Shown here in pieces: positions 4,682 through 19,783 of a stretch of DNA of 64,000 nucleotides. Numbering within the stretch: position 1 is the stretch's first letter; each line of letters begins with the position of its first letter. A model generated the notes under the pieces. The model saw only the letters and a program-made list of their open reading frames with translations, made no database searches and was not told where the DNA came from. The translations under genes were made by a program, and so were the position numbers. The DNA lies in the NCBI RefSeq assembly GCF_031458325.1, contig NZ_JAVDYG010000001.1:248001-312000 (forward strand). Reading direction: 5' to 3'. Origin of the DNA: Nocardioides marmoribigeumensis. Its GTDB lineage: Bacteria; Actinomycetota; Actinomycetes; Propionibacteriales; Nocardioidaceae.

Positions 4682-4690
4682 GAGACGCAG

Positions 4691-4725: not shown

Positions 4726-4874
4726 CCGCGCTGCTGCTCGCCGGCCCGACAGCCGCCTCTCGGCGAGTGGCCGCTCGAAGCGGCAGATGGTGAGGCCCGG
4801 GGGCATGTAGCGGACCGGCGACCGTCACAACAGGGCCGGCGACCGGATCATTCCCTGCTGCCACACTTGGGTCC

Positions 4875-5239
4875 ATGGCCATCGACCCGACCGGACGCTC
4901 CCTCAGCAGTTCCTCGCCGACGACCCCGACACCCCTGTGGTGATGCTCAACCTGCTGCGCTTCGCCGAGGGCGGGCGCGCGAGCTACGACCAGTACGCCG
5001 AGGCTCTGCGCACCACCTTCCTCCCGAGGTACGGCGGCGAGGTGCTCTACGCGGGCGACGGGGCGACCCCGTTGGTCGCCGAGCACGGCCAGGACTGGGA
5101 CATGGTGCTGCTCGTGCGCTACCCGACCCGCCGCGCGTTCAGCGAGATGGTCGCCGACCCCGCCTACCAGGAGGTCACCCATCTGCGCACCGAGGCGCTG
5201 GTCGAGGCGGTCCTGCAGCCGACCACGCCGCTGGTCTGA
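4875..5239 (+). pseudogene. DUF1330-type protein, apparently frameshifted near its start
   Basis: From 4937 the reading frame encodes VVMLNLLRFAEGG, then a ferredoxin-like alpha/beta fold ending at 5239, typical of DUF1330 (dimeric alpha-beta barrel) proteins. The expected start (ATG 4875, MAIDPTG) lies in another frame. The peptide QQFLADDPDT, which normally links the two, appears in the downstream frame from 4904. One missing base between about 4896 and 4904 explains this. As it stands, only a GTG/ATG at 4937-4943 without an obvious ribosome-binding site could start a roughly 100-aa product. It is either a sequencing indel or a recently broken gene. Confidence 0.6.
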
Positions 5240-5241
5240 GG

Positions 5242-6681
5242 TCAGCGGCTGATCTGCATCACCACGGCCTTGGGCTCGGTGAAGAACTCGCGGCTGAAGT
5301 CGCCGCCCTCGCGACCCACGCCGCTGTCGCCGACGCCGCCGAACGGCGTGCGCAGGTCGCGGATGAAGAAGCAGTTGACCCACACCGTCCCGGCTCGCAG
5401 GCGCGAGGACACCCGGTGCGCGCGCGAGAGGTTCTCGGTGAACAGCATCGCGTTGAGGCCGTAGCGCGTGTCGTTGGCGAGGGCCACGACCTCGTCCTCG
5501 GAGTCGAAGGTGTTGACCACGCAGACCGGCCCGAAGATCTCCTCGCAGTACGCCGGCGCGGTCAACGGCAGGCCGGTCACGATCGTCGGCCGCACGAGCC
5601 AGCGGCCGGTCTCGTCGACCCCACCGGTCAACAGCGTGCCGCCGTCGTCCCCCACGCCCTCGACGTACGACGCCACCTTGTCGAAGTGCCGCTTGCTGGC
5701 GAGGCTGCTGAACTTCGTCGCCGGGTCGAACGGGTCGCCGATCGTGAGCGCCTCGGCGGCCGCGGTGAACCGCGCGAGGAACTCCTCGCGGATGCCGGAC
5801 TGCACGAACAGTCGCGACCCGGCGAGGCAGACCTGGCCGGAGTTGCGGAAGATCGACTCGACCGCCCAGTGCACCGCGTTGTCGAGGTCGGCGTCGTCGA
5901 ACACGATGTTGGCGCCCTTGCCGCCCAGCTCGAGCGACACCGGCGCGAGGTGCGTCGCGGCTGACGCCATCACCAGTCGCCCGGTCTGCGACGAGCCGGT
6001 GAAGGTGACCCGGTCGACGCGCTCGTCGGCGGTGAGCGACGACCCGGCCGGGGCGCCGTGGCCGTTGAGCACGTTGAGCACGCCCGGCGGCAGACCCGCC
6101 TCGACGGCGAGGCGGCCCAGCATCGTCACCGACGCGGGCGTGTCCTCCGACGGCTTGATCACACACGTGTTGCCCCAGGCGATCGCCGGCGCGGCCTTCC
6201 ACGTCGCCATCATCAGCGGGAAGTTCCACGGGCTGATCGCGGCGACGACGCCGGCCGGGCCGTACTCGCTGTAGGAGTGGTGTCCCGAGTCCATCGGGTA
6301 GACCTCGCCGACGTGGTCGCGCTGGTGGTCGGCGAAGAACCGGAAGTTCCACACCGACCGGCCGACGTCGTGCTTGGCCTGGGCGAACGGCTTGCCCATG
6401 TTGGTGCTGTCGAGGGTCGCGAGCTCGTCGGCGCGCGCCTCCATCAGGTCGGCGAGGGCGTGCAGGTGGCCGGCCCGCTCCGCGCGTCCCATCCTCGGCC
6501 AGGGCCCCTCGTCGAACGCGCGACGCGCGCTCGTCACGGCACGGTCGGCGTCCTCGGGGCCGCCCTCGGCGGCTTGGGCGAAGACCTCCTGGCTCCACGG
6601 GTTCCAGACGTCGAAGGTCTTGCCGTCGATCGACGCCACCTCCTCGCCGTCGATGACGTGGCCGAAGAACGTGTCGGTCAT
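5242..6681 (-). CDS. 2-hydroxymuconic semialdehyde dehydrogenase-like aldehyde dehydrogenase
   Basis: A 479-aa NAD(P)-dependent aldehyde dehydrogenase of normal length. Visible catalytic features are PWNF (151-154), the general base Glu251 in SLELGGKG, and the nucleophile Cys285 in NSGQVCLAG. It is the last gene of the catabolic operon and overlaps the tautomerase gene by 4 bp (TCAT at 6678-6681). Together with the tautomerase and decarboxylase it forms the oxalocrotonate branch of a meta-cleavage pathway: semialdehyde to 4-oxalocrotonate, with NADH produced. Aldehyde dehydrogenases are hard to assign by sequence alone; the context makes the call. Confidence 0.85.
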   Translation of the reverse strand: MTDTFFGHVIDGEEVASIDGKTFDVWNPWSQEVFAQAAEGGPEDADRAVTSARRAFDEGPWPRMGRAERAGHLHALADLMEARADELATLDSTNMGKPFAQAKHDVGRSVWNFRFFADHQRDHVGEVYPMDSGHHSYSEYGPAGVVAAISPWNFPLMMATWKAAPAIAWGNTCVIKPSEDTPASVTMLGRLAVEAGLPPGVLNVLNGHGAPAGSSLTADERVDRVTFTGSSQTGRLVMASAATHLAPVSLELGGKGANIVFDDADLDNAVHWAVESIFRNSGQVCLAGSRLFVQSGIREEFLARFTAAAEALTIGDPFDPATKFSSLASKRHFDKVASYVEGVGDDGGTLLTGGVDETGRWLVRPTIVTGLPLTAPAYCEEIFGPVCVVNTFDSEDEVVALANDTRYGLNAMLFTENLSRAHRVSSRLRAGTVWVNCFFIRDLRTPFGGVGDSGVGREGGDFSREFFTEPKAVVMQISR

Positions 6682-6881
6682 GACGTCTCCTTCCCGCGCC
6701 GCTCGGCGATGGTCACGTCGCCCGCGGCCCAGTGCGTCGCCGGCACCTCGCGTACGACGACCCGCACGGTCTCGCGCGGAGCCTCGACGGCTGCGACCGC
6801 GGCATCGGTCAGGCCGGTGATCAGCGCACGCACCTGCTCGGGCGTGCGGCCCTCGACCATGGTCACCTCGATCAGGGGCAT
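6678..6881 (-). CDS. 4-oxalocrotonate tautomerase family enzyme
   Basis: A 67-aa protein starting MPLIEVTMVEGR. After Met removal it exposes the catalytic Pro1, and Arg11 and Arg39 are at the canonical 4-oxalocrotonate tautomerase positions. The usual Phe50 is a Trp here. It converts 2-hydroxymuconate to the 2-oxo-3-hexenedioate isomer, between the dehydrogenase and decarboxylase steps. The gene overlaps the following dehydrogenase start by 4 bp and sits 2 bp after the preceding stop (6884), so it is translated as part of the operon. Confidence 0.9.
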   Translation of the reverse strand: MPLIEVTMVEGRTPEQVRALITGLTDAAVAAVEAPRETVRVVVREVPATHWAAGDVTIAERRGKETS

Positions 6882-6883
6882 GG

Positions 6884-7690
6884 TCAGCCACCCTCGACGG
6901 TGACCGAGCCCAGGTGGGCGAACCGCATCGTCACCGTCGTGCCCGAGGGGATGGGGACGGCGTCGGTCATGCCACCGGTCAGGACCACCCACCCGGGCTC
7001 GATCGCGCGCCCGCGCCTGGCGAGCTCGTTAGCGGCCAGCGCGAGCGCGTCGCCCGGGTGCCCGAGCACGGCCTCGCCGGTCGCGGAGTCGACCTCCTCG
7101 CCGTCCACCTCGACGCCGACACGCTCGGCGACGAGGTCCAGGTCGGCGGGGGCGAGCTCGACGGACCCGGTGGCATAGGCGCCTGACGAGGCGTTGTCGG
7201 CCACCACGTCACCGGCCTTGAACCGGAAGTCGCGGTAGCGGCTGTCGATCACCTCGGCGCCGGCCAGCACCGTGCCGACGGCCGCCATCGCGGCTTCGCG
7301 GGTCACGCCCGGCCCCTCGAGCCGGTCGCGCATCACGAACACGATCTCCGGCTCGATGCGCGGGTGGATCAGCCGGTCCTGCGGGACGGGCGCGCCGGCG
7401 GGCAGGATCATCGCGTCGGTCAGCCACGCCACCAGGGGCACGTCGACCCCCATGCGCTCCTGCTTCGCCTTGCTGGTCAGGCCGAGCTTGACGCCGACGA
7501 GTCTCTCGCCGCGCGCGATCCTGAGCTCCAGCGCCAGGTCCTGGACGGCGTAGCCGGTCTCGAGGTCGAGCTCGGGCCACTCGTCGGTGAAGGGTGTGCG
7601 GTCACGTCGCTCGTCCTCGCAGCTCAGCAGCTCGGCGGCGACGGAGTCGAGGTCCCAGCTGAGGTCGGGGGCCTTGTCGGTGCGGGTCAC
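6884..7690 (-). CDS. 4-oxalocrotonate decarboxylase / 2-oxopent-4-enoate hydratase family protein
   Basis: A 268-aa protein with the family core VGVKLGLTSKAKQERMGV (about 66-83), the metal-binding region RIEPEIVFVM (about 112-121) and GAEVIDSRYRDFRFK. Decarboxylase (DmpH/XylI) and hydratase (DmpE/MhpD) are homologous and of the same size. The tautomerase next door makes decarboxylase the likelier role, but only one copy exists here, so one of the two activities must be encoded elsewhere or shared. It overlaps the reductase gene upstream by 4 bp (7687-7690). Confidence 0.85.
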   Translation of the reverse strand: MTRTDKAPDLSWDLDSVAAELLSCEDERRDRTPFTDEWPELDLETGYAVQDLALELRIARGERLVGVKLGLTSKAKQERMGVDVPLVAWLTDAMILPAGAPVPQDRLIHPRIEPEIVFVMRDRLEGPGVTREAAMAAVGTVLAGAEVIDSRYRDFRFKAGDVVADNASSGAYATGSVELAPADLDLVAERVGVEVDGEEVDSATGEAVLGHPGDALALAANELARRGRAIEPGWVVLTGGMTDAVPIPSGTTVTMRFAHLGSVTVEGG

Positions 7691-8655
7691 AGCTCCAGCT
7701 CCAGTCTCGGGCAGGTCGGTCGGGACACACAGATCATCATCTGGTCCATGGCGGCAGCCTCCCGCTTGGTGAGCACGAGGTCGCGGTGGTCGACGGTGCC
7801 CTCACGGACGCGGGTCACGCAGGAGCCGCAGATGCCGTCGCGGCAGTCGTTCTCCACCTCGATGCCGAGTGCCAGCACGGTCTCGAGGATGTTGGTCTCG
7901 GGCTTGAGGCGCAGCGTGTGGCCGGACTCGGTGAGCACCAGCTCATAGCTGTCGGCGTCGAGCGACGCGCTCTCGGCCGGCTCGATCCCCGCCCGGCTGA
8001 ACAGCTCGAAGCGCACCACGTCCTGGTCGGGCCCGAGCACGTCGTCGGCCGCCTTCTGGACCGCGCGCAGCAGCGGGAGCGGGCCACAGACGTAGACCAG
8101 ACCGCCGTCCGGGAGGTCCTTCACGAGCGTCTCGAGGTCGGGCCGCCCGTCCTGGTCCTCGGCGAGGAACGACACGTGGTCCCCCAGCGCGGCCAGCCGC
8201 TGACGGAACGCCATGGACGAGGCCGTGCGGCCGCCGTACGTGAGGTGGAAGGGGCGTCCGTCGCGGTGCAGCCGCTCGGCCATCGCCATCATCGGCGTGA
8301 TCCCGACGCCGCCCGCGACAAGCTCGTGGTGGGTCGCATCCTCGAGCACGAAGTTGTGCTTCGGGCGCGTGACGAGCAGGCGGTCGCCGACACGCACCGT
8401 GTCGTGGACGTACGCCGACCCGCCGCGACCCTCGGGCTCGCGCAGCACCGCGATCTGCCAGGAGGACAGGTCGTCCGGGTCACCGCACAGCGAGTACTGC
8501 CGCGTGGTGCCGTCGTGGACGTAGACGTCGACGTGGTCGCCGGGCTCCCACGCGGGCAGCGGGTCGTTGCTCTCGATCCGGCTCAACCGCAGGGACAGGA
8601 CGCCGTCGGCCTCCCAGGTCATCTGGGAGACGCGGACCTCACGCTGTTCGACCAT
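7687..8655 (-). CDS. PDR/VanB-type reductase (flavin, NAD and C-terminal 2Fe-2S), partner of the Rieske oxygenase
   Basis: A 322-aa single-chain reductase with three modules in order. The flavin-binding barrel has RQYS (52-55), the NAD(P) domain has GGVGITPM (115-122) and VCGP (189-192), and a plant-type ferredoxin domain has C271, C276, C279 and C309. This module order is the phthalate-dioxygenase-reductase / vanillate-demethylase-reductase type. It moves electrons from NAD(P)H to a terminal Rieske oxygenase, which is encoded three genes upstream in the same operon (9596-10852). The HAD phosphatase gene ahead overlaps it by 17 bp. Confidence 0.9.
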   Translation of the reverse strand: MVEQREVRVSQMTWEADGVLSLRLSRIESNDPLPAWEPGDHVDVYVHDGTTRQYSLCGDPDDLSSWQIAVLREPEGRGGSAYVHDTVRVGDRLLVTRPKHNFVLEDATHHELVAGGVGITPMMAMAERLHRDGRPFHLTYGGRTASSMAFRQRLAALGDHVSFLAEDQDGRPDLETLVKDLPDGGLVYVCGPLPLLRAVQKAADDVLGPDQDVVRFELFSRAGIEPAESASLDADSYELVLTESGHTLRLKPETNILETVLALGIEVENDCRDGICGSCVTRVREGTVDHRDLVLTKREAAAMDQMMICVSRPTCPRLELEL

Positions 8656-9307
8656 CGCCTTCTCCTTCCAGCCCGAGCAGCTTGCGCACCTGCGCGTACG
8701 ACGCGTCGGGGTCGAGCACGTCGAACCACACCGACGGGATGCCGATCGCCTCGGCCCCGCGGATGTTGGTGGCCTGGTCGTCGAGGAAGACCATGTCGTC
8801 CAGCGCGACGTCGAGCCGCTCGCCGAGCAGCTGGTAGAGCCGCGGGTCGGGCTTGAGGAAGCCCTCGACCGACCCGTCGACGATCAGGTCGATCTCGCGG
8901 AGCACGTCCATCTCCGCGAGCCACTGGTCGCTGTGGAAGGCCTTCATGTCGTTGGTGAGGATGCTGACCGGGATGCCGGCGGCCCGCGCGTCGCGGATCA
9001 GCGCCCGCGCCTGGTCGCGGATGAGCTCGGGCCGGGCCGGCTCGAACAGGTGCGCCACAAGGGCTCGGATGTCGCGGCCGACGCCACCCGCCTGGTGCCA
9101 CTCCTCGGACCGGTGCGCCCAGTAGGTGCGCTCGGTGATGCGGCCGGCCTGCAGGTCGTCCCAGTCGGGGTCGGACCCGGGCTGCGCCAGCGGCCCACGT
9201 CCGTGCAGCAGCGCGTGGGCCGGCGTGTCCGGCTCGAGCTCGACCAGCTCGAAGATCGTGAGCAGGACGGGACCGCCGAAGTCGAGGACCAGCGCGGGCG
9301 TGCTCAT
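8639..9307 (-). CDS. HAD-superfamily hydrolase (probable phosphatase)
   Basis: A 222-aa HAD protein with the nucleophile motif LDFGGPVLLT (Asp9; the second Asp of DxD is Gly, as in many epoxide-hydrolase-N-terminal-like HADs). It also has motif II SILTND, the motif III lysine in FLKPDPRLYQ and motif IV VFLDDQ. The helical cap of about 70 residues between motifs I and II fits subclass C1. It lies inside the phosphorylation-linked aromatic operon, between the zinc-ribbon and reductase genes. It may therefore remove phosphate from a pathway intermediate or act on an off-pathway phosphate ester. Its substrate is unproven, and the operon has a second, unrelated phosphatase. Confidence 0.8.
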   Translation of the reverse strand: MSTPALVLDFGGPVLLTIFELVELEPDTPAHALLHGRGPLAQPGSDPDWDDLQAGRITERTYWAHRSEEWHQAGGVGRDIRALVAHLFEPARPELIRDQARALIRDARAAGIPVSILTNDMKAFHSDQWLAEMDVLREIDLIVDGSVEGFLKPDPRLYQLLGERLDVALDDMVFLDDQATNIRGAEAIGIPSVWFDVLDPDASYAQVRKLLGLEGEGDGRTA

Positions 9308-9603
9308 CAGTGCTCCGCCTCCTCGATGACCGCGCGACGGAAGAGCACGACGTTGCCGGTCCACCGGCACTCCGCGCACCAGGTGAGGAAGATGCGCTCC
9401 TCACCGCTCCACCACTCCGAGATCAGGCCACGCTCCAGCGACGAGCCGCAGCCGGGGCAGAACTTCGGCCGGTCGAGCAGGTGGTGCGCGGCGTCCGAGG
9501 CGAACCAGTCCCCCGGCGGCGGCAGCCGGTGGGGGTCGGGCGGCAGCTCCGGCATCGGCCCGTGGTGGGCCGCCCGTCGTGCCTCCTGGTCCAGGTCACG
9601 CAC
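9307..9603 (-). CDS. Small zinc-ribbon protein of the aromatic operon
   Basis: A 98-aa protein with two paired cysteines, FCPGCGS and WCAECRW, about 28 residues apart, giving a classic zinc-ribbon or rubredoxin-like knuckle. I set the start at GTG 9603 because GGGAGAAGG precedes it at a good distance. It then overlaps the Rieske oxygenase stop by 8 bp. An internal ATG at 9555 (MPELPPDPH) is the alternative. No membrane or DNA-binding segment is visible. Being sandwiched between oxygenase and phosphatase suggests a metal or redox accessory role; I do not recognise the family. Confidence 0.65.
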   Translation of the reverse strand: MRDLDQEARRAAHHGPMPELPPDPHRLPPPGDWFASDAAHHLLDRPKFCPGCGSSLERGLISEWWSGEERIFLTWCAECRWTGNVVLFRRAVIEEAEH

Positions 9604-10852
9604 CGGACCCGGCCTTCTCCCGCGCCTCGGCCGCGTCGTGGTGCACCTTGAGCAGCTCCTCGCGGATCGGCGAGTAGCGCATCGAGCCACCGTTGATCCA
9701 CTGGTCGACGAAGGCCGTGCCGGCGCCGAACTTGTCCTTCTCGCACGGCAGGTCGATCCGGTCGTGCTTCTCGCGCACGGTGCCCGGCGGGTCCTCGCCG
9801 TCCTCGACCATCGCCATGGCCTCCTTGAACATCTTGCGCAGCATCGCGACCCCCTGGTCGGAGCGACCGAGGTGCTCCTGGGAGCGGTCGGTGATCGCGC
9901 CCTGCGAGACCCACGCCATGACGTCCTGGCCCTCGACGTAGTCGGTGACGAAGTCGCCGTTCTCGTCGAAGACCTCGTAGTTGTAGACGACCGGACGCTC
10001 CTGCGGCTCCCACGTGCCGCCCTCGGGGTGGTGCACGGAGTAGAAGAGCTTCCAGGTGGTGGTGTCGTCGATCGGCACCCGGATCTGCATCTGGTCGATC
10101 CACTGGCCGCCCACGCGCATGCCGTAGGGGAACATCAGCGGGTGGCCGATGGCCCAGTCGTCGTTGTCCTCTCCGTGGCCCTCGAGCACGCGCCGCTTGA
10201 TGATGCCGTACTCGAACTCGTCGAACGCCACCTTGACGTGCTTCTTCTGGAAGGACTTCGGCGCCTCGAAGCCCTGGGTCTGGCCGAGGAACTCGAAGTA
10301 GGCGCCGTGCAGCCACTCGACGTGGTGCGGGTCGACCGAGTTCTCCATGATCTGCAGCCAGTTGCACGGGAGCGTGGCGACGCCGATGTCACGGATGCCG
10401 TCCATGACGTAGACGTCGAACCGCGGCAGCTCCGGAGCGGGACCCGGGCCGACGTACACCCACACCATCCCGCCCAGGGTCTGGGCGGACCCGGCCTTGG
10501 CCTTGATCTTCTCGCGGAAGGTCGTGTTGTCGTTCTCGGCCGGCTGCTCGATGCACTGGCCCGAGAAGTCATACTTCCAGCCGTGGTAGCCGCACCGGAC
10601 GCCCTCGTCGTCGACGATGCCGTAGGTCAGCGACGCCCGACGGTGCGGGCAGGCCTCGCCGATGATCCCGTAGCGGCCGGACGGCGTCTTGTAGAGCGTC
10701 CAGCTCTCCCCGAGCAGCCGGACGGTCTTGCTGGGCCTCTTGTCGAAGTCCTGCTCGAAGGCGATCGGGTACCAGTAGCGGCGCAGCAGCTCGCCCATCC
10801 GGGTGCCGGGGCCGACACTGGTCAGCTCCTCGTTCTGCTCGACGGTCAACAT
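9596..10852 (-). CDS. Rieske-type aromatic ring-hydroxylating / O-demethylating oxygenase, catalytic subunit
   Basis: A 418-aa terminal oxygenase. The N-terminal Rieske [2Fe-2S] site is C68-x-H70 and C87-x2-H90 (ACPHRRAS, RCGYHGWKY). The mononuclear iron motif is ENSVDPHHVEWLH, with D174, H177 and H182. The opening EELTSVGPGTRMGELLRRYW is characteristic of the phthalate-dioxygenase / LigX-like group. Its electron donor is surely the PDR-type reductase at 7687-8655. Placed between the PEP-synthase-like subunits and the phosphatase/meta-cleavage genes, it plausibly oxygenates a phosphorylated phenol. Direct attack on an unphosphorylated aromatic is equally possible from sequence alone. Confidence 0.9.
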   Translation of the reverse strand: MLTVEQNEELTSVGPGTRMGELLRRYWYPIAFEQDFDKRPSKTVRLLGESWTLYKTPSGRYGIIGEACPHRRASLTYGIVDDEGVRCGYHGWKYDFSGQCIEQPAENDNTTFREKIKAKAGSAQTLGGMVWVYVGPGPAPELPRFDVYVMDGIRDIGVATLPCNWLQIMENSVDPHHVEWLHGAYFEFLGQTQGFEAPKSFQKKHVKVAFDEFEYGIIKRRVLEGHGEDNDDWAIGHPLMFPYGMRVGGQWIDQMQIRVPIDDTTTWKLFYSVHHPEGGTWEPQERPVVYNYEVFDENGDFVTDYVEGQDVMAWVSQGAITDRSQEHLGRSDQGVAMLRKMFKEAMAMVEDGEDPPGTVREKHDRIDLPCEKDKFGAGTAFVDQWINGGSMRYSPIREELLKVHHDAAEAREKAGSGA

Positions 10853-10892
10853 GCGTGGTGTCTCTCTTTCGAAGGGGTCGAGGGGGAAGGGG

Positions 10893-12707
10893 TCAGTCGT
10901 CGAGGACCTGGACCTTGCCGGTGTTGCCGTCGACGCGGATCACCTGGCCGGTCTTGATGGTCTTGGTGCCGAAGGCCGTGCCGGTGACGGCAGGCAGCCC
11001 GTACTCGCGGCAGACGATGGCGGCGTGGCTCATCATGCCGCCGACGTCGGTGACGGTCGCCTTGATCTTCCCGAACACCGGCGCCCACGACGGGGCGGTC
11101 AGCGGGGCGACGAGGATCTCGCCGTCCTCGATCTCGGAGATCTGGTCGGCGGAGAAGATCACCCGCGCGGGGCCCTCGACCAGTCCGGGCGAGGCCGCGA
11201 AGCCGCTCAGCGAGCCGTCGGCCGACTCGTCGCCGGAGCTCAGCCACGCCGACACGGAGTCGGAGGTGATGCCCCACAGCATGACGGTGAACGGCTCGGT
11301 GACGACCTCCGGCGGGATGCCGAGGGCCGGCGGGGCCGACCACTGCTTGAGCGCGTCGTGGATGCCGTGGCGGCGCTCGATCTCGGCGGGCCAGCGACCG
11401 GGGCCGGCGGGCTTGGTGCCGACCGCCCAGGCCGAGTAGAGGTCGAACAGGACGTCGGAGAGCTCGGCCCGCTTGAACATGAAGACGTCCTCGACCTCGG
11501 CGATGAAGCCGGCCTCCACGAGCACGTTGCCGAGGTCGCGCATCTTGCGCCAGATCACCGAGTGCGCCCAGTGCTCGACGTAGAAGTTGTGGTTCTCCAC
11601 GTAGGGGAACACCGTGCGGGACAGGCCCAGCTTGGCGTCGAAGGCCTCGCGGTCCTCGTCGGAGTCGAGGAGCTCGCGGTACTCCCCCACGACCCGGTCA
11701 CGCTCGACGTGCAGCGCTGCGACCGGGCGGTTGAGGTCGACGCCCTCCTTGACCTTGACGATGTAGTCGGCGATGTAGCCCAGCGGGACCTCGACGTTCT
11801 CGATCCAGATCTTGTCGGAGTGATAGAAACCCGAGCCCGTCGAGAAGTTGAACCACGGCTCGGCAGCCTTCTCCCACTCCGCGATCCAGGCGGCGCCGAC
11901 CTCGTCGCTGGCGAGCTTCTCGAAGGTCTGCTCGATCGCGCCGACGTCGAAGCGGTCGTCGACGCCCGAGCTGACCGCGAGCCGGGCGAGGCGCTTGAGC
12001 TCGTCGTCGGGACGGAAGAGGTCGACGTCGACCCCGGCGACCATCTTGGCGATCGCCAGGTCGGGGATCGAGGGGAACGCCGCCTTACAGAAGCCGAAGA
12101 AGTCGAGGTAGGCCGCGTAGCCGAGGTTGAGGAACTCGAAGTGGTACTGCCACAGCGTCAGCGCGTGGTCGAGCAGGCGGTGGTAGGCCGACAGCAGGCG
12201 GTTGCCCGACCCCTGGCCCGCACCGGAGGTGATCACCTCGAGCGGCTCGCGCGACGGGAGGCCGGAGAGGTCGAGCGCGCTCAGCTGCTGCACGAGGTCG
12301 CGGATCTTGACCAGCCAGTCGTCGTACAGGCTGTCCCAGTTCTGGAAGTAGTGGCCCGCCCGCTCGAGGAACTCCGGCACGCGACCCTCGATCTCCTCCA
12401 TCGGCGCGGGCACCGGGCTGAGGTAGACGTAGCCGTTGAGGATCCGGAAGTCGACGCCGAGCGCCGGCGGGATGACGTAGTGCCGGGTGTTGTACTGCGA
12501 GAGCGACGCGATCGCGAACTCGAACAGCGTGGTGTCCCACGGCGTCAGCGCCTCCGGCCAGTGCACGCCGTCGTGAAACCAGAAGCCGCCGTCCTCGTAG
12601 TCGCGACGCGACTCGGTGAACAGCGAGGAGTAGCTGTAGAGCTCCTCCCAGCCCTCCGCGCCCGGAGGTGTCTGGATGTCGTACGGGCTGTCGAAACGGT
12701 CGGCCAT
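10893..12707 (-). CDS. PEP-synthase-like phosphohistidine subunit (phenylphosphate-synthase-type)
   Basis: A 604-aa protein. The last ~85 residues are the swivelling domain of PEP-utilising enzymes, with the phosphorylatable His561 in VGGMMSHAAIVCREYGLPA. The first ~500 residues (Trp/Tyr-rich, mostly helical) do not look like the PEP/pyruvate TIM barrel and may bind the phenolic acceptor. I chose ATG 12707 (MADRFDSPY) over 12713 because AAGGA lies 6 nt before it and abuts the other. The size (~68 kDa), the separate ~40-kDa ATP-grasp subunit upstream and the catabolic setting match phenylphosphate synthase proteins 1 and 2 and, as I recall, CreH/CreI of Corynebacterium. The predicted reaction is ATP + phenol to aryl phosphate + AMP + Pi. 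Confidence 0.8.
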   Translation of the reverse strand: MADRFDSPYDIQTPPGAEGWEELYSYSSLFTESRRDYEDGGFWFHDGVHWPEALTPWDTTLFEFAIASLSQYNTRHYVIPPALGVDFRILNGYVYLSPVPAPMEEIEGRVPEFLERAGHYFQNWDSLYDDWLVKIRDLVQQLSALDLSGLPSREPLEVITSGAGQGSGNRLLSAYHRLLDHALTLWQYHFEFLNLGYAAYLDFFGFCKAAFPSIPDLAIAKMVAGVDVDLFRPDDELKRLARLAVSSGVDDRFDVGAIEQTFEKLASDEVGAAWIAEWEKAAEPWFNFSTGSGFYHSDKIWIENVEVPLGYIADYIVKVKEGVDLNRPVAALHVERDRVVGEYRELLDSDEDREAFDAKLGLSRTVFPYVENHNFYVEHWAHSVIWRKMRDLGNVLVEAGFIAEVEDVFMFKRAELSDVLFDLYSAWAVGTKPAGPGRWPAEIERRHGIHDALKQWSAPPALGIPPEVVTEPFTVMLWGITSDSVSAWLSSGDESADGSLSGFAASPGLVEGPARVIFSADQISEIEDGEILVAPLTAPSWAPVFGKIKATVTDVGGMMSHAAIVCREYGLPAVTGTAFGTKTIKTGQVIRVDGNTGKVQVLDD

Positions 12708-12783
12708 GGTCATTCCTTTGTGTGACAGGGAGGTGGAGTGGATCCCGCCCGAGCGGGTCGGTGCCTGACGGTGACGTGCGCCG

Positions 12784-13887: not shown

Positions 13888-13895
13888 CACTGCGG

Positions 13896-14999
13896 TCACT
13901 CCTGGAATCGGGCGTCGTTGGTGGGCGGGAGGGCGTCGAGGTCGGGGACGGAGACCTCCTGCACCCGGTTGCGGTAGAGCACCAGGGCCGTGTGACCGCC
14001 GGAGAGCAGGCGCACGCGGACGAACTCGGTGTTGAACGGCTCGCCCGGGTCGTAGCCCATGGCGAGCGTGGCGAAGGCGCGGATCGGGCCGGAGTGGGTG
14101 GCGACCACGACGCTGCGGGCCTGCGTGTTCTCGTGTGCCGCGAGGATGCCGCGCCAGAAGCGACGCACGCAGGAGACCGGCGGCTCGAAGTACATCATCG
14201 GCATCGTGAGCCAGTGCGTGATCGGGTCGCCGCCGCCCTGCTGGATGCCCCAGAACCGGTCGACGTCGACCAGCCAGCCGGGACGCTCGCCGAGGCCGAG
14301 GCGCTCGTACTTCTCCATCTCGCGGTGGTAGAGCCGGAACGCGCTGGTCACGTCGCGCGGACCGGCGGGCGTGGCCACCTCGAAGTTGCGGAAGTCCGGG
14401 CTGTCGTGGAGCTCGCCGATCTCGGCGTCGCGGCCGAAGAGCCGGAGGTTGTCCAGCAGTCCACGGCGCAGGTGCTCGCCGGTCTGACGGGCGCGGTTGG
14501 TGGGGGCGCTGAGCAGTGCGACCTTGTGGCCGTCCGCCACCCGACGGGCCAGCTCCTGACCACGGCGGTGCGCCTGCCACGAGCCGAGCGGGGTGAGGCC
14601 GGACTCCGAGGAGTAGCCCTGCGTCTCGCCGTGGCGGACGAGGTAGATGTCGCAGTCGACGTCGGCCAGCTGGTCGCGCCGCTCGGGGACGACCTCCTTG
14701 GTGCGGGTGACGTCGGCCCAGGCGCGGGTCGCGGAGATGACGTTGCCGTCGTACTCGATCGTCTCCTCGCGGTGCGCGCGCTCGCGGAACCGGCGGAGGT
14801 AGAGCGGCACGCTCTCGTCGGGGGCGTCCTCGGGCGTGGCCTCCGGGGTCGTCTCCGGCGCCGGGGCGTTGCGCCGACGGGCCTGGTGGCGGGAGAGGTA
14901 CGCCGGGGCGTCCGGCCGCTCGGTGCGCGGGAGGTTCGCGGACTGCGACTGCGGGGACTCGGTCGACTCGGGTGCGTCGGAGTGCGTCTCGATGGTCAT
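13896..14999 (-). CDS. Histidine-phosphatase (phosphoglycerate-mutase-like) with long N-terminal extension
   Basis: A 367-aa branch-1 histidine phosphatase. The catalytic RHG is at 122-124 (IYLVRHGETQGYS), and the second catalytic His is H302 in VVATHSGPIRAF. The first ~110 residues precede the core and are partly low-complexity (APETTPEATPEDAPDESV), which is unusual for this family. The gene lies 8 bp ahead of the ATP-grasp subunit and directly follows the two extradiol dioxygenases. Inferred job: hydrolysis of the aryl phosphate once oxygenation has occurred, releasing a catechol for ring cleavage. A regulatory phosphatase cannot be excluded. Confidence 0.82.
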   Translation of the reverse strand: MTIETHSDAPESTESPQSQSANLPRTERPDAPAYLSRHQARRRNAPAPETTPEATPEDAPDESVPLYLRRFRERAHREETIEYDGNVISATRAWADVTRTKEVVPERRDQLADVDCDIYLVRHGETQGYSSESGLTPLGSWQAHRRGQELARRVADGHKVALLSAPTNRARQTGEHLRRGLLDNLRLFGRDAEIGELHDSPDFRNFEVATPAGPRDVTSAFRLYHREMEKYERLGLGERPGWLVDVDRFWGIQQGGGDPITHWLTMPMMYFEPPVSCVRRFWRGILAAHENTQARSVVVATHSGPIRAFATLAMGYDPGEPFNTEFVRVRLLSGGHTALVLYRNRVQEVSVPDLDALPPTNDARFQE

Positions 15000-15009
15000 C
15001 GCGCCGGCC

Positions 15010-15921
15010 TCAGCTGTGCACCGTGAGGAACTGCTGGTTGACGACGCCGTCGTAGTAGAACATCGCGCGTCCCATCTCGGCCTCGGTCCAGGTGATCGGC
15101 TCGGAGCCCGGGTCCACCCAGTAGCCACCGGTGAACATCTCGTTGCGGTTGCCGACCGGGTCGAAGAAGTAGAGGCACTGACCGCGGGTGGCGCCGTGCC
15201 GCGTGGGGTTCGTCTCCATGTGCACGCCGTGGTAGACGCAGGCGTCGGCGGCGTTGCGCAGGTCGTTCCACCCGTCCACCCAGTAGGCGAAGTGGTGCAG
15301 ACCCCGGTTGGGTCCGGTGATGAAGGCGATGTCGTGCGAGCGGTGCGAGACCTCGAGCCAGCTGGCGATCTGGAAGCCGTCGTCGCCCATCACCTGCTCG
15401 GTGAGGCGGAAGTCGAGGTGCTCGATGAGGAAGCGGGTGTTGGTGTCGACCTCCTCGGCGGTGAGGAAGACGTGGTCGACGCGCGGCGGCGCGATGCCGA
15501 CCAGGCCCATCGGACGCGGCGGCGGGTTGGTCTGCGGCAGCAGGTTGCCGACCTGCTGCATGCCGTAGACCAGCTCCATCTCGTGGCCGCTGGGGAGCTC
15601 GAAGCGGATCGCCGTGCCGTGCCCGGGTGCCCACTCGTCAGCCAGATAGCGACGTACGGCGACGCCGGCCGCCTCGAGCCGCTGCTGGTAGTGGTCGAGG
15701 TCGCCCTCGTCGGTCACCTTGAACCCGAAGTGGTTGACGCCGTGCGTGGGCTCCAGCGTGAGGACCACGCTGTGGTGCTGGTGCTCGTCCCAGCACTTGA
15801 GGAAGACCCGGGAGGAGTCACGGCCGGTCTCGACCATGCCGATCACCTCCTCGTAGTAGGCCGTGGCCAGCTCGAGGTCGGGGACGCGGAGCTCGATGTG
15901 GGACATGCGCAGGATGGTCAT
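15010..15921 (-). CDS. Catechol 2,3-dioxygenase (type I extradiol, two-domain VOC), copy 1
   Basis: A 303-aa two-module vicinal-oxygen-chelate protein. The C-terminal module carries the iron ligands H150 (PPRVDH), H210 or H209 (GLHHFAYW) and E261 (GNRNEMFTGGY). Second-shell residues equivalent to His199, His246 and Tyr255 of XylE are present as H196, H242 and Y251. Spacing matches XylE almost residue for residue, so an active extradiol enzyme is expected, cleaving a catechol to a 2-hydroxymuconic semialdehyde. It overlaps the upstream paralogue by one base (15921). Ring-substituent preference is not predictable here. Confidence 0.92.
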   Translation of the reverse strand: MTILRMSHIELRVPDLELATAYYEEVIGMVETGRDSSRVFLKCWDEHQHHSVVLTLEPTHGVNHFGFKVTDEGDLDHYQQRLEAAGVAVRRYLADEWAPGHGTAIRFELPSGHEMELVYGMQQVGNLLPQTNPPPRPMGLVGIAPPRVDHVFLTAEEVDTNTRFLIEHLDFRLTEQVMGDDGFQIASWLEVSHRSHDIAFITGPNRGLHHFAYWVDGWNDLRNAADACVYHGVHMETNPTRHGATRGQCLYFFDPVGNRNEMFTGGYWVDPGSEPITWTEAEMGRAMFYYDGVVNQQFLTVHS

Positions 15922-17036
15922 CAGGTGTGCACTCTCAGGAAGCGGTCGTTGACCTCGCCCTCGTAGTAGAAGACGGCGCGGCCGATGTTGTCCTCGGTCC
16001 AGGTGACGGTCGGGAAGTCGGGATCGGGTCGGTAGCCACCGGTGAACACCTCGTTGCGGGTGCCCAGCGGGTCGAAGAAGTAGATGGTCGAGCCGCGGGT
16101 GATGCCGTGGCGGGTGGGACCCACGTCGAGCTGGATCCCGTTGTAGGCAAGGACGTCCGCGGCGTCGCGCACGTCGTCCCAGTCGTCGAGCCAGAAGGCG
16201 AAGTGGTGCAGGCCTCCGTTGGGCCCCTGCACGATCGCGAGGTCGTGCGGCGAGTGGGAGCGCTCCAGCCAGGTGCCGAGCTGGTGCCCGTTGCCGTCGA
16301 GGAGCTGCTCGGTGATGCGGAAGCCGAGCACGTCCATGAAGAAGCGGGTGGACTCGCCGACCTCCTCCGCGTTGATCAGCATGTGGTCCATGCGCGGCGG
16401 GGCGATGAAGTCGCGCGGGAAGGGCTGGTCGTCGCTGGCCTTGTCGGGGAGGTGGCGCGGCTTGGTGGTGCCGACCTTCTCCACGTCGGCGACGAGCTCC
16501 ATCACGTGGCCGCTCGGGGTGAAGAAGCGGATCGACTCGCCCTGGCCCAGGGACTCGCCCTTGCCGAGGCGCTCGACCGGGAACCCGTAGCGGGTCACCT
16601 TGTCCTCGAGCTCGGCGAGGTCGTCCTCGTGGTGGACCTTGAACGACATGAGGTCCATACCCATGCGCGGGGCGTAGCGCAGCCGCAGCGAGTGGTGGTC
16701 CTCCTCGTCCCAGCACTTGAGGTAGACGCTGTCCTCGGTCAGGGCGGTGATCTCCATGCCCATCACGCCGGTGTAGTAGGCGGTCGCGAGGTCGAGGTCG
16801 GTGACCGTGACGTCGACGTGGCCGAGGCGGAGGACGCCGCGCGGCCGGCCGATGCTGGTGGCGCGGCCCGCCTGGCGCGAGTCGGAGGGGTCGCGACGGG
16901 GGGTCCCGTCGGGCGGGGCCCACGGGGCGGTGACCCGGCGGGTGCCTGCCGGGGTGCCCTCGGCGAGGTCGACGTGGGCGCCGCCCTCGCTGTCAGGCCC
17001 GCCGAGTGGGGCTGTGACGCCGTTCACAGATGTCAT
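15921..17036 (-). CDS. Catechol 2,3-dioxygenase-like extradiol dioxygenase, copy 2, with N-terminal extension
   Basis: A 371-aa paralogue of the next gene, with iron ligands H218 (PPRMDH), H277 or H278 (GLHHFAFW) and E329 (GTRNEVFTGGY). The XylE-like second shell is H264, H310 and Y319. About 68 extra residues precede the first VOC module; they are rich in Pro, Gly, Arg and Asp and look disordered. ATG 17036 (MTSVNGVTAP) is the first Met, but a later start near LGHVDVTVTD is conceivable. It is first in the twelve-gene operon, so its promoter lies in the divergent gap 17037-17136. Two intact copies suggest different substrate ranges or resistance to suicide inactivation. Confidence 0.9.
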   Translation of the reverse strand: MTSVNGVTAPLGGPDSEGGAHVDLAEGTPAGTRRVTAPWAPPDGTPRRDPSDSRQAGRATSIGRPRGVLRLGHVDVTVTDLDLATAYYTGVMGMEITALTEDSVYLKCWDEEDHHSLRLRYAPRMGMDLMSFKVHHEDDLAELEDKVTRYGFPVERLGKGESLGQGESIRFFTPSGHVMELVADVEKVGTTKPRHLPDKASDDQPFPRDFIAPPRMDHMLINAEEVGESTRFFMDVLGFRITEQLLDGNGHQLGTWLERSHSPHDLAIVQGPNGGLHHFAFWLDDWDDVRDAADVLAYNGIQLDVGPTRHGITRGSTIYFFDPLGTRNEVFTGGYRPDPDFPTVTWTEDNIGRAVFYYEGEVNDRFLRVHT

Positions 17037-17078
17037 GCAACGGACGTTAGGCCGGGGGTCCACGCCTGCCCATAGCCC

Positions 17079-17095
17079 GTTCCGCCATGCAGAAC
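17079..17095. promoter_or_regulatory. Candidate IclR operator in the divergent gap
   Basis: GTTC-c-GC-cat-GC-a-GAAC is a 17-bp interrupted palindrome midway between the divergent starts at 17036 and 17137. IclR-type regulators of aromatic catabolism typically bind short palindromes of this size at such promoters, and an IclR gene lies at 17787. The match is by eye and is inference. Confidence 0.4.
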
Positions 17096-17136
17096 AGAAG
17101 GTGGCGCTGTTCGCTCCAGCGGGACAGGCTGGGGTC

Positions 17137-17790
17137 ATGGACGCGCAGGCACCGACCGGCCCCGAGGGGATGCGGCAGCTCGTGCGCGACTACGTCTGGA
17201 CGGTCCACGCGACGTACCTCGACCACGTCAAGCACCTGCCACCGGGCGTGCGCGCGACCCTCCCCCTGGTCGCCGCCGACCAGCTGACCGTGGCGGCCGC
17301 GGCGGCCCGTCGTCTGCACCTCGTCGCGGTGACGACCCCGCTGCCCGCCGGCGCTCCGCACGAGGTCGCGATCACCGACGAGCACGGTGGGACGTCCTGG
17401 ACGACCCGCTTCTACGACCCGACCGTCCTGCCCGCGCTGGGCGTCCTGGGCGACGACTCCCCCGCCGACGTACGACGGGTGCTCGGCGTCGCCGGCACCG
17501 TCTACCACCTGACCGTCGAGCCGGGCGGCGGACTGGACGCGCACCACGCGCAGCACACCGGTGTCGCGCTGGCCAACCAGCACGCGCGGACCGTGCGCCA
17601 GCTCGAGCGGCTGCGGGTGCTGCTCCCCCACCGGACCGGACTCGTCGACGAGCTCGGCACCTGCGCCGCGCTCGGCCTCGACCACGCCGCAGCACTCCTC
17701 GGCCGAGAGCTCGCCGGGATCGAGCCGGAGCCAGGCACGTCCGCCGCCGACGTGCTGGACGCGGTCGTCGCCCGGGTGGGGCGCCGATGA
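17137..17790 (+). CDS. Unknown 217-aa protein, first gene of the divergent aromatic unit
   Basis: A soluble protein opening with MRQLVRDYVWTVHATYLDHV, with a helical, His-rich centre (GLDAHHAQHTGVALANQHAR). No signal peptide or membrane span is visible. Its stop overlaps the ATG of the IclR gene (GATGA at 17786-17790), so it belongs to the regulator/hydrolase transcript. I cannot assign a family. The size (~23 kDa) is close to the third, stimulatory subunit of phenylphosphate synthase, but the CBS motifs of that protein are not evident, so I do not make that call. Confidence 0.65.
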   Translation: MDAQAPTGPEGMRQLVRDYVWTVHATYLDHVKHLPPGVRATLPLVAADQLTVAAAAARRLHLVAVTTPLPAGAPHEVAITDEHGGTSWTTRFYDPTVLPALGVLGDDSPADVRRVLGVAGTVYHLTVEPGGGLDAHHAQHTGVALANQHARTVRQLERLRVLLPHRTGLVDELGTCAALGLDHAAALLGRELAGIEPEPGTSAADVLDAVVARVGRR

Positions 17791-18557
17791 CGCGGCCCCT
17801 GGCCACCCGGCTCTCCAGCGTCGCGACCGCCGCCCGCATCCTGCGCGAGTTCGACAAGCACAGCACCCAGCTCGGCGTGACCCAGCTGGCCGGCCGGGTC
17901 GGGGTGGGGAAGAGCTCGGCGCACCGCGTGATCTGGACCCTGGTCGAGGAGGGCCTGCTGGAGAAGGTCGAGGAGACCGGGCTGTTCCGCCTCACCACGA
18001 CCATGCGGTCCCTCGGAGCGAGCGCCGAGACCGCGCAGCGCCTGCACGAGGCCGCCACCATCCCGCTCGACCGGCTGCGGGCGCTGACCCCGGGCACGCT
18101 CCACATCGCGATCCTCGAAGGTGGCGACGTGCTCTACATCGAGCGCCGCGAGGGCCCGGGCGCGATCCAGCTGTTCCGCTCGGTCGGCGCTCGCAACGCC
18201 GCCCACGTGACGTCGAGCGGCAAGGTGCTGCTGGCCTTCCTCCCTCCCGACGAGCAGGAGCGGGCGCTGGCGCGCCTGCGGCTCACGCCCAAGACACCCC
18301 GGTCGATCACGTCCCCGCGCGCCTTCGCGACCGAGCTCGCCGCCGTACGACGGCAGGGCTACGCCGAGAACCGCGGCGAGTCCCAGCCCGGCATGTGCTC
18401 GATCGCGGCCCCGGTCCGCGACCCGGTCGGCCGGGTCGTCGCATCGGTCTCGGTCGCGGTGTACGTCGAGGACGTGGACGCCGGCCTGCCCCACCTCGCG
18501 CGGCCGGTGATCGAGACCGCCACCCACATCTCGTCCGGGCTGGGGTGGAGACCGTGA
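17787..18557 (+). CDS. IclR-family transcriptional regulator
   Basis: A 256-aa protein with an N-terminal winged helix-turn-helix (VTQLAGRVGVGKSSAHRVIWTL, here split: VTQLAGRVGVGKSS then AHRVIWTLVEEG) and the C-terminal IclR effector domain (HVTSSGKVLLAFLP, then QGYAENRGESQPGMCSIAAP). It is coupled by 4-bp overlaps to genes on both sides. IclR proteins commonly control meta- and ortho-cleavage operons in response to an aromatic ligand. It probably controls the divergent reverse operon starting at 17036 and its own transcript. Confidence 0.92.
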   Translation: MTRPLATRLSSVATAARILREFDKHSTQLGVTQLAGRVGVGKSSAHRVIWTLVEEGLLEKVEETGLFRLTTTMRSLGASAETAQRLHEAATIPLDRLRALTPGTLHIAILEGGDVLYIERREGPGAIQLFRSVGARNAAHVTSSGKVLLAFLPPDEQERALARLRLTPKTPRSITSPRAFATELAAVRRQGYAENRGESQPGMCSIAAPVRDPVGRVVASVSVAVYVEDVDAGLPHLARPVIETATHISSGLGWRP

Positions 18558-19783
18558 CCGGCGCGTGGGAGCGGGTCTGCCCCGAGGACGACCTGCTCCC
18601 CGACCAGCCGCACGGCGTGCTCGTCGGCGACTCGGGCCAGGACCGCGACCGGGTGTGCGTGGTGCGGCCGGCGTCCGGCGAGCCGGTCGCGATGCTGGAC
18701 CGCTGCCCCCACCGCGACATCGCGCTCTCCGGCGGGATCGTGAAGGACGGACAGCTCGTGTGCCCCGGCCACTTCTGGCGGTTCGACCTGGCCTCGGGAC
18801 GCTGCACCGACCGTCCGCGCCAGTCGGCCTCGGTCTACCCCACCCGCGTCGTCGACGGCTGGGTCGAGGCCCTCGTGCCCGCCCCGGCAGCGCCCCTGTC
18901 CATGCGCGAGCGGCTGCTGGCCGCCGCTGCCACCGCTCCCCCGAGGAGGTCCGCCGTGACCGCTGTCGCCACCAACCCCGAGATCGGCGAGACCGTCTCC
19001 GCAGGAGGCATCCGCACCAACCACCACGACGAGGGGTCCGGTTCGCCCGTCCTCCTCGTGCACGGGTCCGGCCCCGGGGTCAGCGCCTACGCCAACTGGC
19101 GACTCACCCTCCCCGCCCTCGCGCAGCGGTTCCGCGTCGTCGCCCCGGACGTGCTCGGCTTCGGCTACACGGAGAAGCCGCCCGGGACGTCGTACGACGT
19201 GGACACGTGGGTCCACCACCTCGTGGGCTACCTCGACGCGCTGGAGCTAGAGCGGGTCTCCGTGATCGGCAACAGCTTCGGTGGTGCCCTGGCGCTGCAC
19301 CTGGCCACGCGGCATCCCGAGCGGGTCGATCGGCTGGTGCTCATGGGCAGCGTCGGCACCAGCTTCGACCTCACCCCTGGTCTCGAACGCGTGTGGGGCT
19401 TCGAGCCGTCGCTGCCTGCGATGCGCGAGCTGCTCGAGGTCTTCGCCTTCGACACCTCGCTGCTCACCGACGACCTCGCCACCATGCGCCTGCGGGCGGC
19501 GACGCGGCCCGGCGTCCACGAGGCCTATCGGAAGATGTTCCCGGCGCCGCGCCAGCGCAGCATCGACGCGCTGGCAGTCGACGAGCAGCTGCTGCGCGAG
19601 CTCCCGCACCGCACGCTCGTCGTCCACGGACGCGAGGACCGCGTGATCCCCCTGTCGTCGTCCGAGCGCCTGCGCGAGCTGGTCCTCGACTCACGGCTGC
19701 ACGTGTTCGACGGCTGCGGCCACTGGGTGCAGATCGAGCACGCGGACATGTTCAACGAGCTGGTGATCGACTTCTTGTCCTGA
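18554..19783 (+). CDS. In-frame fusion: Rieske 2Fe-2S ferredoxin domain + meta-cleavage product hydrolase
   Basis: One open frame of 409 codons starting at GTG 18554 (GTGA overlap with the IclR stop). Residues 1-110 are a Rieske domain with C51-x-H53 and C70-x2-H73 (DRCPHRDI, VCPGHFWRF). Residues 135-409 are an alpha/beta hydrolase with oxyanion loop HGSGPG (170-175), Ser241 in GNSFGG, Asp362 in GREDRVIP and His390 in CGHWVQIEH, the DmpD/BphD pattern. The hydrolase half has its own strong Shine-Dalgarno and GTG at codon 135. The cell may therefore make both a fusion and a free 275-aa hydrolase. The hydrolase would serve the hydrolytic branch for ketone-type ring-cleavage products. Confidence 0.85.
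   Translation: MTGAWERVCPEDDLLPDQPHGVLVGDSGQDRDRVCVVRPASGEPVAMLDRCPHRDIALSGGIVKDGQLVCPGHFWRFDLASGRCTDRPRQSASVYPTRVVDGWVEALVPAPAAPLSMRERLLAAAATAPPRRSAVTAVATNPEIGETVSAGGIRTNHHDEGSGSPVLLVHGSGPGVSAYANWRLTLPALAQRFRVVAPDVLGFGYTEKPPGTSYDVDTWVHHLVGYLDALELERVSVIGNSFGGALALHLATRHPERVDRLVLMGSVGTSFDLTPGLERVWGFEPSLPAMRELLEVFAFDTSLLTDDLATMRLRAATRPGVHEAYRKMFPAPRQRSIDALAVDEQLLRELPHRTLVVHGREDRVIPLSSSERLRELVLDSRLHVFDGCGHWVQIEHADMFNELVIDFLS
18943..18958 (+). promoter_or_regulatory. Internal ribosome-binding site and GTG start for free hydrolase
   Basis: GAGGAGG (18943-18949), a 6-nt spacer and GTG (18956) stand inside the Rieske/hydrolase open frame, exactly at the domain boundary. It is a near-ideal Shine-Dalgarno, better than the one at the upstream start. 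It suggests the hydrolase was, or still is, translated separately. Confidence 0.6.

Follow-up and report, generated by a model that had tools for sequence, protein, structure and literature searches.

A 64,000-nucleotide stretch of the Nocardioides marmoribigeumensis genome (contig NZ_JAVDYG010000001.1, positions 248,001 to 312,000; hereafter the window) was found to hold an operon in which a two-subunit dikinase, KIN_I and KIN_H, lies directly before a Rieske oxygenase. According to the open reading frame (ORF) listing and profile searches, the operon consists of twelve minus-strand genes that occupy positions 5242 to roughly 16.9 kb, neighbours being spaced by -17 to +70 bp. In the order of transcription, two catechol 2,3-dioxygenases (C23O1 and C23O2), a histidine phosphatase, KIN_I, KIN_H, and the Rieske oxygenase make up the first half, and an 82-aa CxxC/CxxC protein, a HAD protein, a PDR reductase, a decarboxylase, a tautomerase, and an aldehyde dehydrogenase make up the second half. 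A 217-aa protein, an IclR regulator, and an ORF joining a Rieske ferredoxin to a hydrolase diverge from the operon. A first-pass annotation had described a twelve-gene reverse operon with a kinase pair, phosphatases, a Rieske oxygenase, a reductase, C23Os, and lower-pathway genes. The operon proved real, and profile searches found each of these parts. Both C23Os exceed the TIGR03211 cut-off and keep the His/His/Glu ligands. The ferredoxin domain, the 217-aa gene, and the CxxC protein were new to that description. The features are as follows.

5242..6681, minus strand: aldehyde dehydrogenase of the 2-hydroxymuconic-semialdehyde type (Pfam Aldedh, 1.4e-160, for a longer ORF at 5242-6891; TIGR02299 at 493.9 bits and TIGR03216 at 492.1 bits, both under their equivalog cut-offs)
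6678..6881, minus strand: 4-oxalocrotonate tautomerase, 4-OT (PF01361, 1.3e-16; TIGR00013 at 57.0 bits, cut-off 56.9)
6884..7690, minus strand: 2-oxo-3-hexenedioate decarboxylase, DmpH-like (best NCBIfam match TIGR03218 dmpH at 245.2 bits, under the cut-off of 350.55)
7687..8655, minus strand: PDR-type reductase, with an NAD-binding domain (PF00175, residues 112-201) followed by a C-terminal plant-type [2Fe-2S] domain (PF00111, residues 244-314)
8639..9307, minus strand: HAD-IA family phosphatase-like protein (PF00702, 8.4e-13, for a longer ORF; best NCBIfam match TIGR02247, under its cut-off)
9307..9555, minus strand: 82-aa protein with two CxxC motifs (four Cys kept in 32/32 copies)
9596..10852, minus strand: Rieske oxygenase alpha subunit, phthalate/isophthalate dioxygenase-like (Pfam Rieske and LigXa_C)
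10893..12713, minus strand: KIN_H, phospho-histidine (swivel) and substrate-binding dikinase subunit (NF006150 at 862.7 bits, cut-off 650)
12784..13887, minus strand: KIN_I, ATP-grasp dikinase subunit (PPDK_N, 1.8e-105; best PDB match 9goj, titled phosphoenolpyruvate synthase)
13896..14999, minus strand: histidine phosphatase with an N-terminal extension of about 110 aa (PF00300, 1.9e-13, for a longer ORF)
15010..15921, minus strand: C23O2, catechol 2,3-dioxygenase (TIGR03211 at 362.4 bits, cut-off 320.2)
15921..16895 (start approximate), minus strand: C23O1, catechol 2,3-dioxygenase (TIGR03211 at 363.0 bits, cut-off 320.2)
17137..17790, plus strand: 217-aa protein without an assigned family (no Pfam or NCBIfam match for the window copy)
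17787..18557, plus strand: IclR-family regulator (PF01614, PF09339)
18545..19783, plus strand: Rieske ferredoxin domain (PF00355 at 8-95) fused to a meta-cleavage alpha/beta hydrolase (PF00561 at 168-400)

As in two-component phenolic dikinases, the ATP-grasp subunit and the swivel/substrate subunit are encoded by separate, adjacent genes. KIN_H has the T/SxxGGxxxH motif (TDVGGMMSH in the window) with the catalytic His (H563), and a Met replaces the regulatory Thr two residues before it. Both residues are kept in 83/83 sequences; residue-conservation counts cover copies of at least 90% of the window protein length without stops, plus the window protein. As stated in parts of PMC12167813, this position is Met in rifampin phosphotransferase and phenolic kinases and Thr in phosphoenolpyruvate synthase, PPDK, and PtsI, and phenols are the substrates phosphorylated by CreHI, HpeHI, and PpsAB. 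Compared with H subunits from annotated plasmids, whose type names were assigned here from neighbouring genes, KIN_H shows 55-56% identity to the Cre type, 50% to the Pps type, and 45% to the Hpe type. The nearest typed references are the P450-linked Cre-type pairs. Among 14 control genomes, NF006150 matched only in Corynebacterium glutamicum, the known Cre organism. Judged from its sequence, the KIN_I/KIN_H pair is a member of the phenol-phosphorylating CreHI/HpeHI/PpsAB kinase family. Phosphoenolpyruvate synthase and rifampin phosphotransferase were each rejected as the whole answer, given the split subunits and the catabolic neighbours, and the former also because of the Met at -2.

Is the Rieske oxygenase a regular partner of this kinase? 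Genome contigs were searched with an eight-sequence KIN_H alignment, and the best 80 of at least 378 confirmed relatives (60-85% identical), selected by KIN_H similarity alone, were numbered L018-L097; the linkage counts use these loci only. KIN_I lies directly before KIN_H in all 74 loci with at least 1.2 kb upstream, and the Rieske gene lies directly after KIN_H in 74 of the 77 loci with at least 1.3 kb downstream. The loci without it are L075, which has a UbiD gene nearby, L088, and L091. Fifty-six loci are full-length (at least 4.5 kb upstream and at least 1.8 kb downstream). Among them, the Rieske gene was found in 54, the histidine phosphatase in 50, the two C23Os in 51 and 50, a HAD match in 47, the CxxC protein in 44, and the 217-aa protein in 40. 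The carriers include Nocardioides, Micromonospora, Kineosporia, many actinobacterial metagenome-assembled genomes (MAGs), and two Acidobacteriota-labelled MAGs; among the cultivated ones are Nocardioides psychrotolerans (L022) and N. zhouii (L023). In a sample of 197 genomes from the family to which the window belongs, the Rieske gene occurs in eight and the kinase in ten, and all eight Rieske genomes have the kinase; the other two kinase genomes are G147, with a Cre-type cluster including a P450, and G118, in which the contig ends inside KIN_H. Since the gene order is kept across many genera, chance is an untenable explanation. The first-pass annotation had proposed to look for co-occurrence across genomes, and kinase, Rieske, phosphatase, and C23O genes were indeed found together at many actinobacterial loci. 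This linkage strongly supports the view that the kinase, the Rieske oxygenase, the phosphatase, and extradiol cleavage form one functional unit.

For typing of the kinases, marker genes within 4.5 kb of KIN_H were recorded in 106 rows, of which 85 are Rieske-linked, eight biotin-carboxylase-linked, three UbiD-linked, two P450-linked, one both Rieske- and P450-linked, and seven without any marker. A quick maximum-likelihood tree (SH-aLRT support only, no bootstrap) was built from 64 of these rows, after every second Rieske-linked row was dropped and all others were kept. Repeated loci remain in the tree, in the residue-conservation counts, and in the neighbour-family counts (87 loci): six of the seven loci L011-L017 share genomes with L018-L097, as do a few loci of the phylum sample (e.g., L127 with L032, L134 with L074). 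One branch (SH-aLRT 95) gathers 45 rows: 42 Rieske-linked, one Rieske- and P450-linked (L056), and two whose locus has no Rieske gene. One of these two, L060, is cut 288 bp past KIN_H, and its Rieske gene lies on another stretch of the same genome; the other, L088, has no more than a weak match of 186 bits in the rest of its genome. L091 and L075 join immediately outside this branch, and the P450-linked, the carboxylase-linked, and the remaining UbiD-linked kinases lie further out. L128_1, a Rieske-labelled second kinase near a main cluster, also falls outside the branch, so that five changes of the Rieske label are required on the tree, compared with a shuffled mean of 17.9. Long end branches (L061_0, L141_0) make the deeper joins unsure.

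Three of these loci have features of their own. At L056, a cluster with a Rieske-type kinase has a P450 match no more than 4.5 kb away, and another KIN_H match (44% identical) follows downstream, which suggests that both pathway types lie side by side. In L061, the main cluster has beside it, on the opposite strand, another kinase pair that is divergent (38% and 28% identity; from 4289 and 5320). L088 (features at 3844-6788 and 8930-11794) belongs to Pseudonocardia asaccharolytica and combines a Rieske-branch kinase with the lack of a Rieske gene in the locus; a search of its genome for this histidine phosphatase at E 1e-20 found none. An upstream gene in L088 resembles a diiron monooxygenase subunit, as judged by eye without a profile search, and perhaps encodes another oxygenase partner.

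Among the profile matches of the window genes, there is no P450 beside the kinase (the Cre feature), its place being taken by the Rieske gene, and there are no biotin-dependent carboxylase (the Hpe feature) and no UbiD-type carboxylase subunits (the feature of phenylphosphate carboxylase). With these partner enzymes missing, membership in the Cre, Hpe, or Pps systems was rejected. The Cre pathway for 4-cresol (CreHI and a P450, Corynebacterium glutamicum), whose chemistry is taken here as background and partly as cited in PMC12167813 and PMC9618137, resembles the window in being actinobacterial and aerobic and in having an IclR gene, adjacent I/H kinase genes, and an oxygenase adjoining the kinase. 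However, the Cre-type clusters compared here (Rhodococcus plasmids NZ_CP021355 and NZ_CP129900, labelled from gene content) have a P450, a ferredoxin, an FAD reductase, an SDR, an HD protein, and an aldehyde dehydrogenase, whereas the window has the Rieske oxygenase, the histidine phosphatase, and the C23Os. The Hpe pathway for acetovanillone (HpeHI, HpeCBA, and HpeD; Rhodococcus rhodochrous GD02) shares the dikinase as the first step and a phosphatase later, but it uses biotin-dependent carboxylation without an oxygenase in the upper pathway, and carboxylase-linked kinases branch apart from that of the window. PpsAB/Ppc of Azoarcus KH32C (L123) shares a two-component kinase, PpsAB acting on phenol; its locus has UbiD-type carboxylase subunits and a CBS protein, and neither a Rieske nor an extradiol enzyme was seen in the part of it that was read. 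Parts of PMC13101465 name AcvAB and the single-component kinase MarK as further related systems. The earlier idea that a Rieske oxygenase replaces the Cre P450 thus stands at the gene level, the nearest typed kinases being P450-linked, while the chemistry on a phosphorylated substrate is an inference. The combination had also been called undescribed, and no description of a phenol dikinase with a Rieske oxygenase was found among the matches listed in the open-access literature searched, a scope that mostly leaves out subscription papers and preprints. The cluster is a conserved variant of phosphorylation-first aromatic catabolism that has apparently not been described before.

What kind of Rieske oxygenase is linked to the kinase? 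In an alignment of 52 rows (the window protein and 51 of 77 listed copies), C68, H70, C87, and H90 as Rieske ligands, D174 as the bridging Asp, and H177, H182, and D310 as the 2-His-1-Asp iron site are invariant, the roles presumably being those of the analogous residues in known enzymes. H205, K219, R220, R221, H237, and R258 are also invariant in 52/52 rows. A structure model from 52 orthologs (mean pLDDT 90, pTM 0.91) gave isophthalate and phthalate dioxygenases as the top Foldseek matches (TM 0.64-0.68, rmsd at least 5 Å). The CxH/CxxH motif, the bridging Asp, the iron site, and the fold are thus all those of a phthalate-dioxygenase-like Rieske enzyme. Phthalate and isophthalate dioxygenases (7v25, 9ina) share the fold, the domain order, and the Rieske and iron ligands with the window enzyme, and a PDR-type reductase is encoded in the window; the window enzyme differs in its low identity to them (25-28%), its Ala at the position of the carboxylate-binding Arg, and its linkage to a kinase.

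The nearest Rieske relative in the plasmid collection, from Peribacillus (L173), is 48% identical and has no kinase marker in its 19-kb stretch. Downstream of it come a CxxC-protein homolog and a 3,4-dihydroxyphthalate decarboxylase (299.9 bits, cut-off 200). Since this kinase-free enzyme stands beside a phthalate-type decarboxylase, its lineage may act on aromatic dianions, which suggests that the Rieske clade linked to the kinase arose from an aromatic-dianion lineage, with a phosphate monoester as the new dianion. The CxxC-protein homolog lies beside Rieske genes for which no kinase exists or was seen (L173 and the fragment L166). Because it travels with the Rieske gene also at loci in which no kinase was seen, the CxxC protein may help the oxygenase as an accessory or maturation subunit. 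As for the ferredoxin-hydrolase ORF, 17 loci were examined, not all from different genomes: the fused length is found in nine, and a ferredoxin without the hydrolase attached in seven (e.g., L018, L020, L023, L027, and L028).

The histidine phosphatase keeps R122, H123, R169, and H302 in 65/65 copies and the full RHG triplet in the window and 57/64 relatives, as in the histidine phosphatase superfamily. D9 of the HAD protein is kept in 54/54 copies. A histidine phosphatase or a HAD gene is present in each of the 54 full-length loci with a Rieske gene. The histidine phosphatase is absent locally from L047, L048, L070, L071, and L072, but it was found elsewhere in all five genomes beside the C23O pair. 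Thus, the C23O1-C23O2-phosphatase module and the KIN_I-KIN_H-Rieske module stay together even when unlinked. Cre-type clusters have an HD protein and the Hpe-type cluster has a HAD protein, and by analogy both are taken to fill the phosphatase role, which for the Cre-type HD protein is presumed. HpeD was shown to be a phosphatase, as reported in parts of PMC9618137. In the single Pps-type locus read, which belongs to a system that releases the phosphate in the carboxylation step, no phosphatase is listed in the gene table, which is incomplete and includes a NUDIX gene. The comparison of the Rieske, Cre, Hpe, and Pps clusters favours retention of the phosphate through oxygenation, followed by hydrolysis.

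The His/His/Glu ligands of catechol 2,3-dioxygenases are kept in 61/61 and 62/62 copies of the two C23Os. The two paralogs, C23O1 and C23O2, are 48% identical to each other, and neither lacks a metal ligand in any ortholog checked. With Dmp/Xyl meta-cleavage, the window shares a C23O, a semialdehyde dehydrogenase, a tautomerase, a decarboxylase, and a hydrolase, but it has two C23O paralogs and a ferredoxin-fused hydrolase, and no hydratase, aldolase, or acetaldehyde dehydrogenase was recognised in the operon. In the neighbour-family counts, which rest on crude ORF calls, count six genomes twice, and exclude the largest blast-network group as a mixture of fused and overlapping ORFs, an HOA aldolase occurs in 33/87 loci and an acetaldehyde dehydrogenase in 29/87. 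A diol-dehydrogenase-like family was not seen in most loci, one SDR family occurring in 7/87 and another in 4/87. The oxygenation product therefore probably re-aromatises alone, either by hydroxylation or O-dealkylation with the phosphate kept or by ipso dioxygenation with the phosphate lost, and either course would give a catechol. The divergent 217-aa protein has nine residues (H61, E76, W88, R91, D94, H124, H136, H140, and H149) invariant in 39 rows and may be a metal-dependent enzyme; its model (pLDDT 92.6) has no Foldseek match in the PDB below 1e-3, and its relatives have only weak, scattered Pfam matches. Apart from the operon, the AT skew of -0.385 at 40001-42000 lies far beyond that of any other 2-kb step of the window.

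The reading that I hold to be somewhat probable is a catabolic operon for a phenol-like aromatic compound, with phosphorylation, Rieske oxygenation with the phosphate kept, dephosphorylation, and meta-cleavage. KIN_I would bind ATP and KIN_H would relay the phosphoryl group via H563 onto the hydroxyl of the phenol, which would become an aryl phosphate. Its dianionic phosphate may then serve as the handle that holds the ring in the phthalate-dioxygenase-type Rieske enzyme, which would be fed by the PDR reductase and possibly also by the Rieske ferredoxin domain. Oxygenation next to the phospho-oxygen, by hydroxylation or O-dealkylation, would yield a catechol monophosphate, from which the histidine phosphatase, perhaps with the HAD protein, would free the catechol. 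After ring opening by the two C23Os, the product would pass to the hydrolase or to the dehydrogenase-tautomerase-decarboxylase branch. I infer the substrate, the action of the Rieske enzyme on the phosphorylated form, the survival of the phosphate through oxygenation, and the order of the steps. On balance, it is probable that this Rieske clade has a natural aryl-phosphate substrate, that dianions made by the kinase from neutral phenols let the phthalate-dioxygenase lineage be recruited, and that the phospho-catechol is dephosphorylated for meta-cleavage.

Several observations weigh against this reading. The PDR reductase is present in only 15 of the 56 full-length loci. L091 has the kinase, the phosphatase, and C23O2, and no Rieske gene was found in its genome, which is a MAG. 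In a phylum sample of 296 genomes, the Rieske gene occurs in 13 and the kinase in 18, and both occur in ten. Two of the three Rieske genomes without a kinase match have 49%-identical genes (L163 and L164) at 535-537 bits, and the third has a fragment at a contig end; the eight full-length Rieske matches in kinase genomes score at least 678 bits. Among the eight kinase genomes without a Rieske gene, six have a biotin carboxylase beside the kinase, one has UbiD, and G307, whose two kinases both exceed the family cut-off, has no typed partner. Nine of the ten genomes over the kinase cut-off in this sample have the Rieske gene. In the window, the HOA aldolase is absent, a copy (79%) lying 1.9 Mb away in the genome. 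Guaiacol-type O-demethylation was considered, but no formaldehyde gene was recognised by eye among the recurring neighbours, and no search was aimed at one. The carboxylate-binding Arg is R244 in phthalate dioxygenase and R234 in isophthalate dioxygenase, according to parts of PMC12445078. The corresponding position, mapped via a HMMER alignment with an inferred tag offset of 23, is Ala in 24 of the 52 rows (including A234 of the window), Lys in 26, Arg in one, and Thr in one. By that test, the window enzyme is not a phthalate dioxygenase, and its phosphate binding is putative. Moreover, the phthalate relatives of this Rieske lineage are dioxygenases, so that ipso attack with direct loss of the phosphate fits at least as well.

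The last point leads to an alternative that I regard as unlikely, yet as the most serious one, namely dioxygenolytic dephosphorylation. The Rieske enzyme would add both oxygen atoms at the phospho-carbon and its neighbour, and the resulting unstable 1-phospho-cis-diol would spontaneously lose inorganic phosphate to give the catechol directly, so that the phosphatases would be needed only for aryl phosphate that has stalled. Aniline-type and sulfobenzoate dioxygenases are familiar examples of ipso dioxygenation in which a leaving group is lost. Both the closest structures and the kinase-free relative with annotated neighbours are of the phthalate-dioxygenase type, and the lack of a diol dehydrogenase recurring in most loci agrees with this course. 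However, the histidine phosphatase accompanies the Rieske gene in 54/54 full-length loci or their genomes, even when unlinked, and a dispensable gene should have gone missing more frequently.

It is a good deal less probable that the kinase serves to trap or concentrate the substrate, or that it tags some other molecule, with the Rieske enzyme oxidising the free phenol once the phosphate has been removed. In that case the phosphatase would act ahead of the oxygenase, and trapping and scavenging are what the authors of the HpeHI study propose for phosphorylation in parts of PMC12167813. Against this, the next Hpe enzyme accepts phosphorylated compounds only, as stated in parts of PMC9618137; the Rieske gene is tied to the kinase, and its kinase-free relative lies in a phthalate-type cluster, where the aromatics are charged.

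Least probable of all, and indeed very doubtful, is an aromatic amine as the substrate: the kinase would form an aryl phosphoramidate, from which the Rieske enzyme would make a catechol, much as the amine is activated first in aerobic aniline degradation. Aniline operons have a similar layout of activating enzyme, Rieske oxygenase, reductase, and C23O. With an amine as the substrate, a phosphatase would not be an obvious need. Anilines are kept as possible substrates because a related two-component synthase of Desulfatiglans anilini phosphorylates both aniline and phenol; the alpha subunit of that aniline synthase is, however, only 27% identical to its own phenol paralog (both from parts of PMC7500099), and KIN_H is far closer than that to the Cre-type H subunits.

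If phosphorylation followed by Rieske oxygenation is true, phenol dikinases would have a fourth class of partner in the Rieske oxygenase, besides P450, biotin carboxylase, and UbiD, and one spread across Actinomycetota. The reason why phenol catabolism starts with phosphorylation is called unclear in parts of PMC12167813. The Rieske partner offers a testable answer: the phosphate would be the group by which the substrate is bound in a lineage of oxygenases that has aromatic dianions among its substrates. Selective oxidation of phenols would gain a new tool in a Rieske enzyme that accepts aryl phosphates. Because named genomes of Nocardioides, Kineosporia, and Micromonospora carry the cluster, as do many MAGs of actinobacteria, phenolic or lignin-derived carbon could be passing along a route that has been overlooked.

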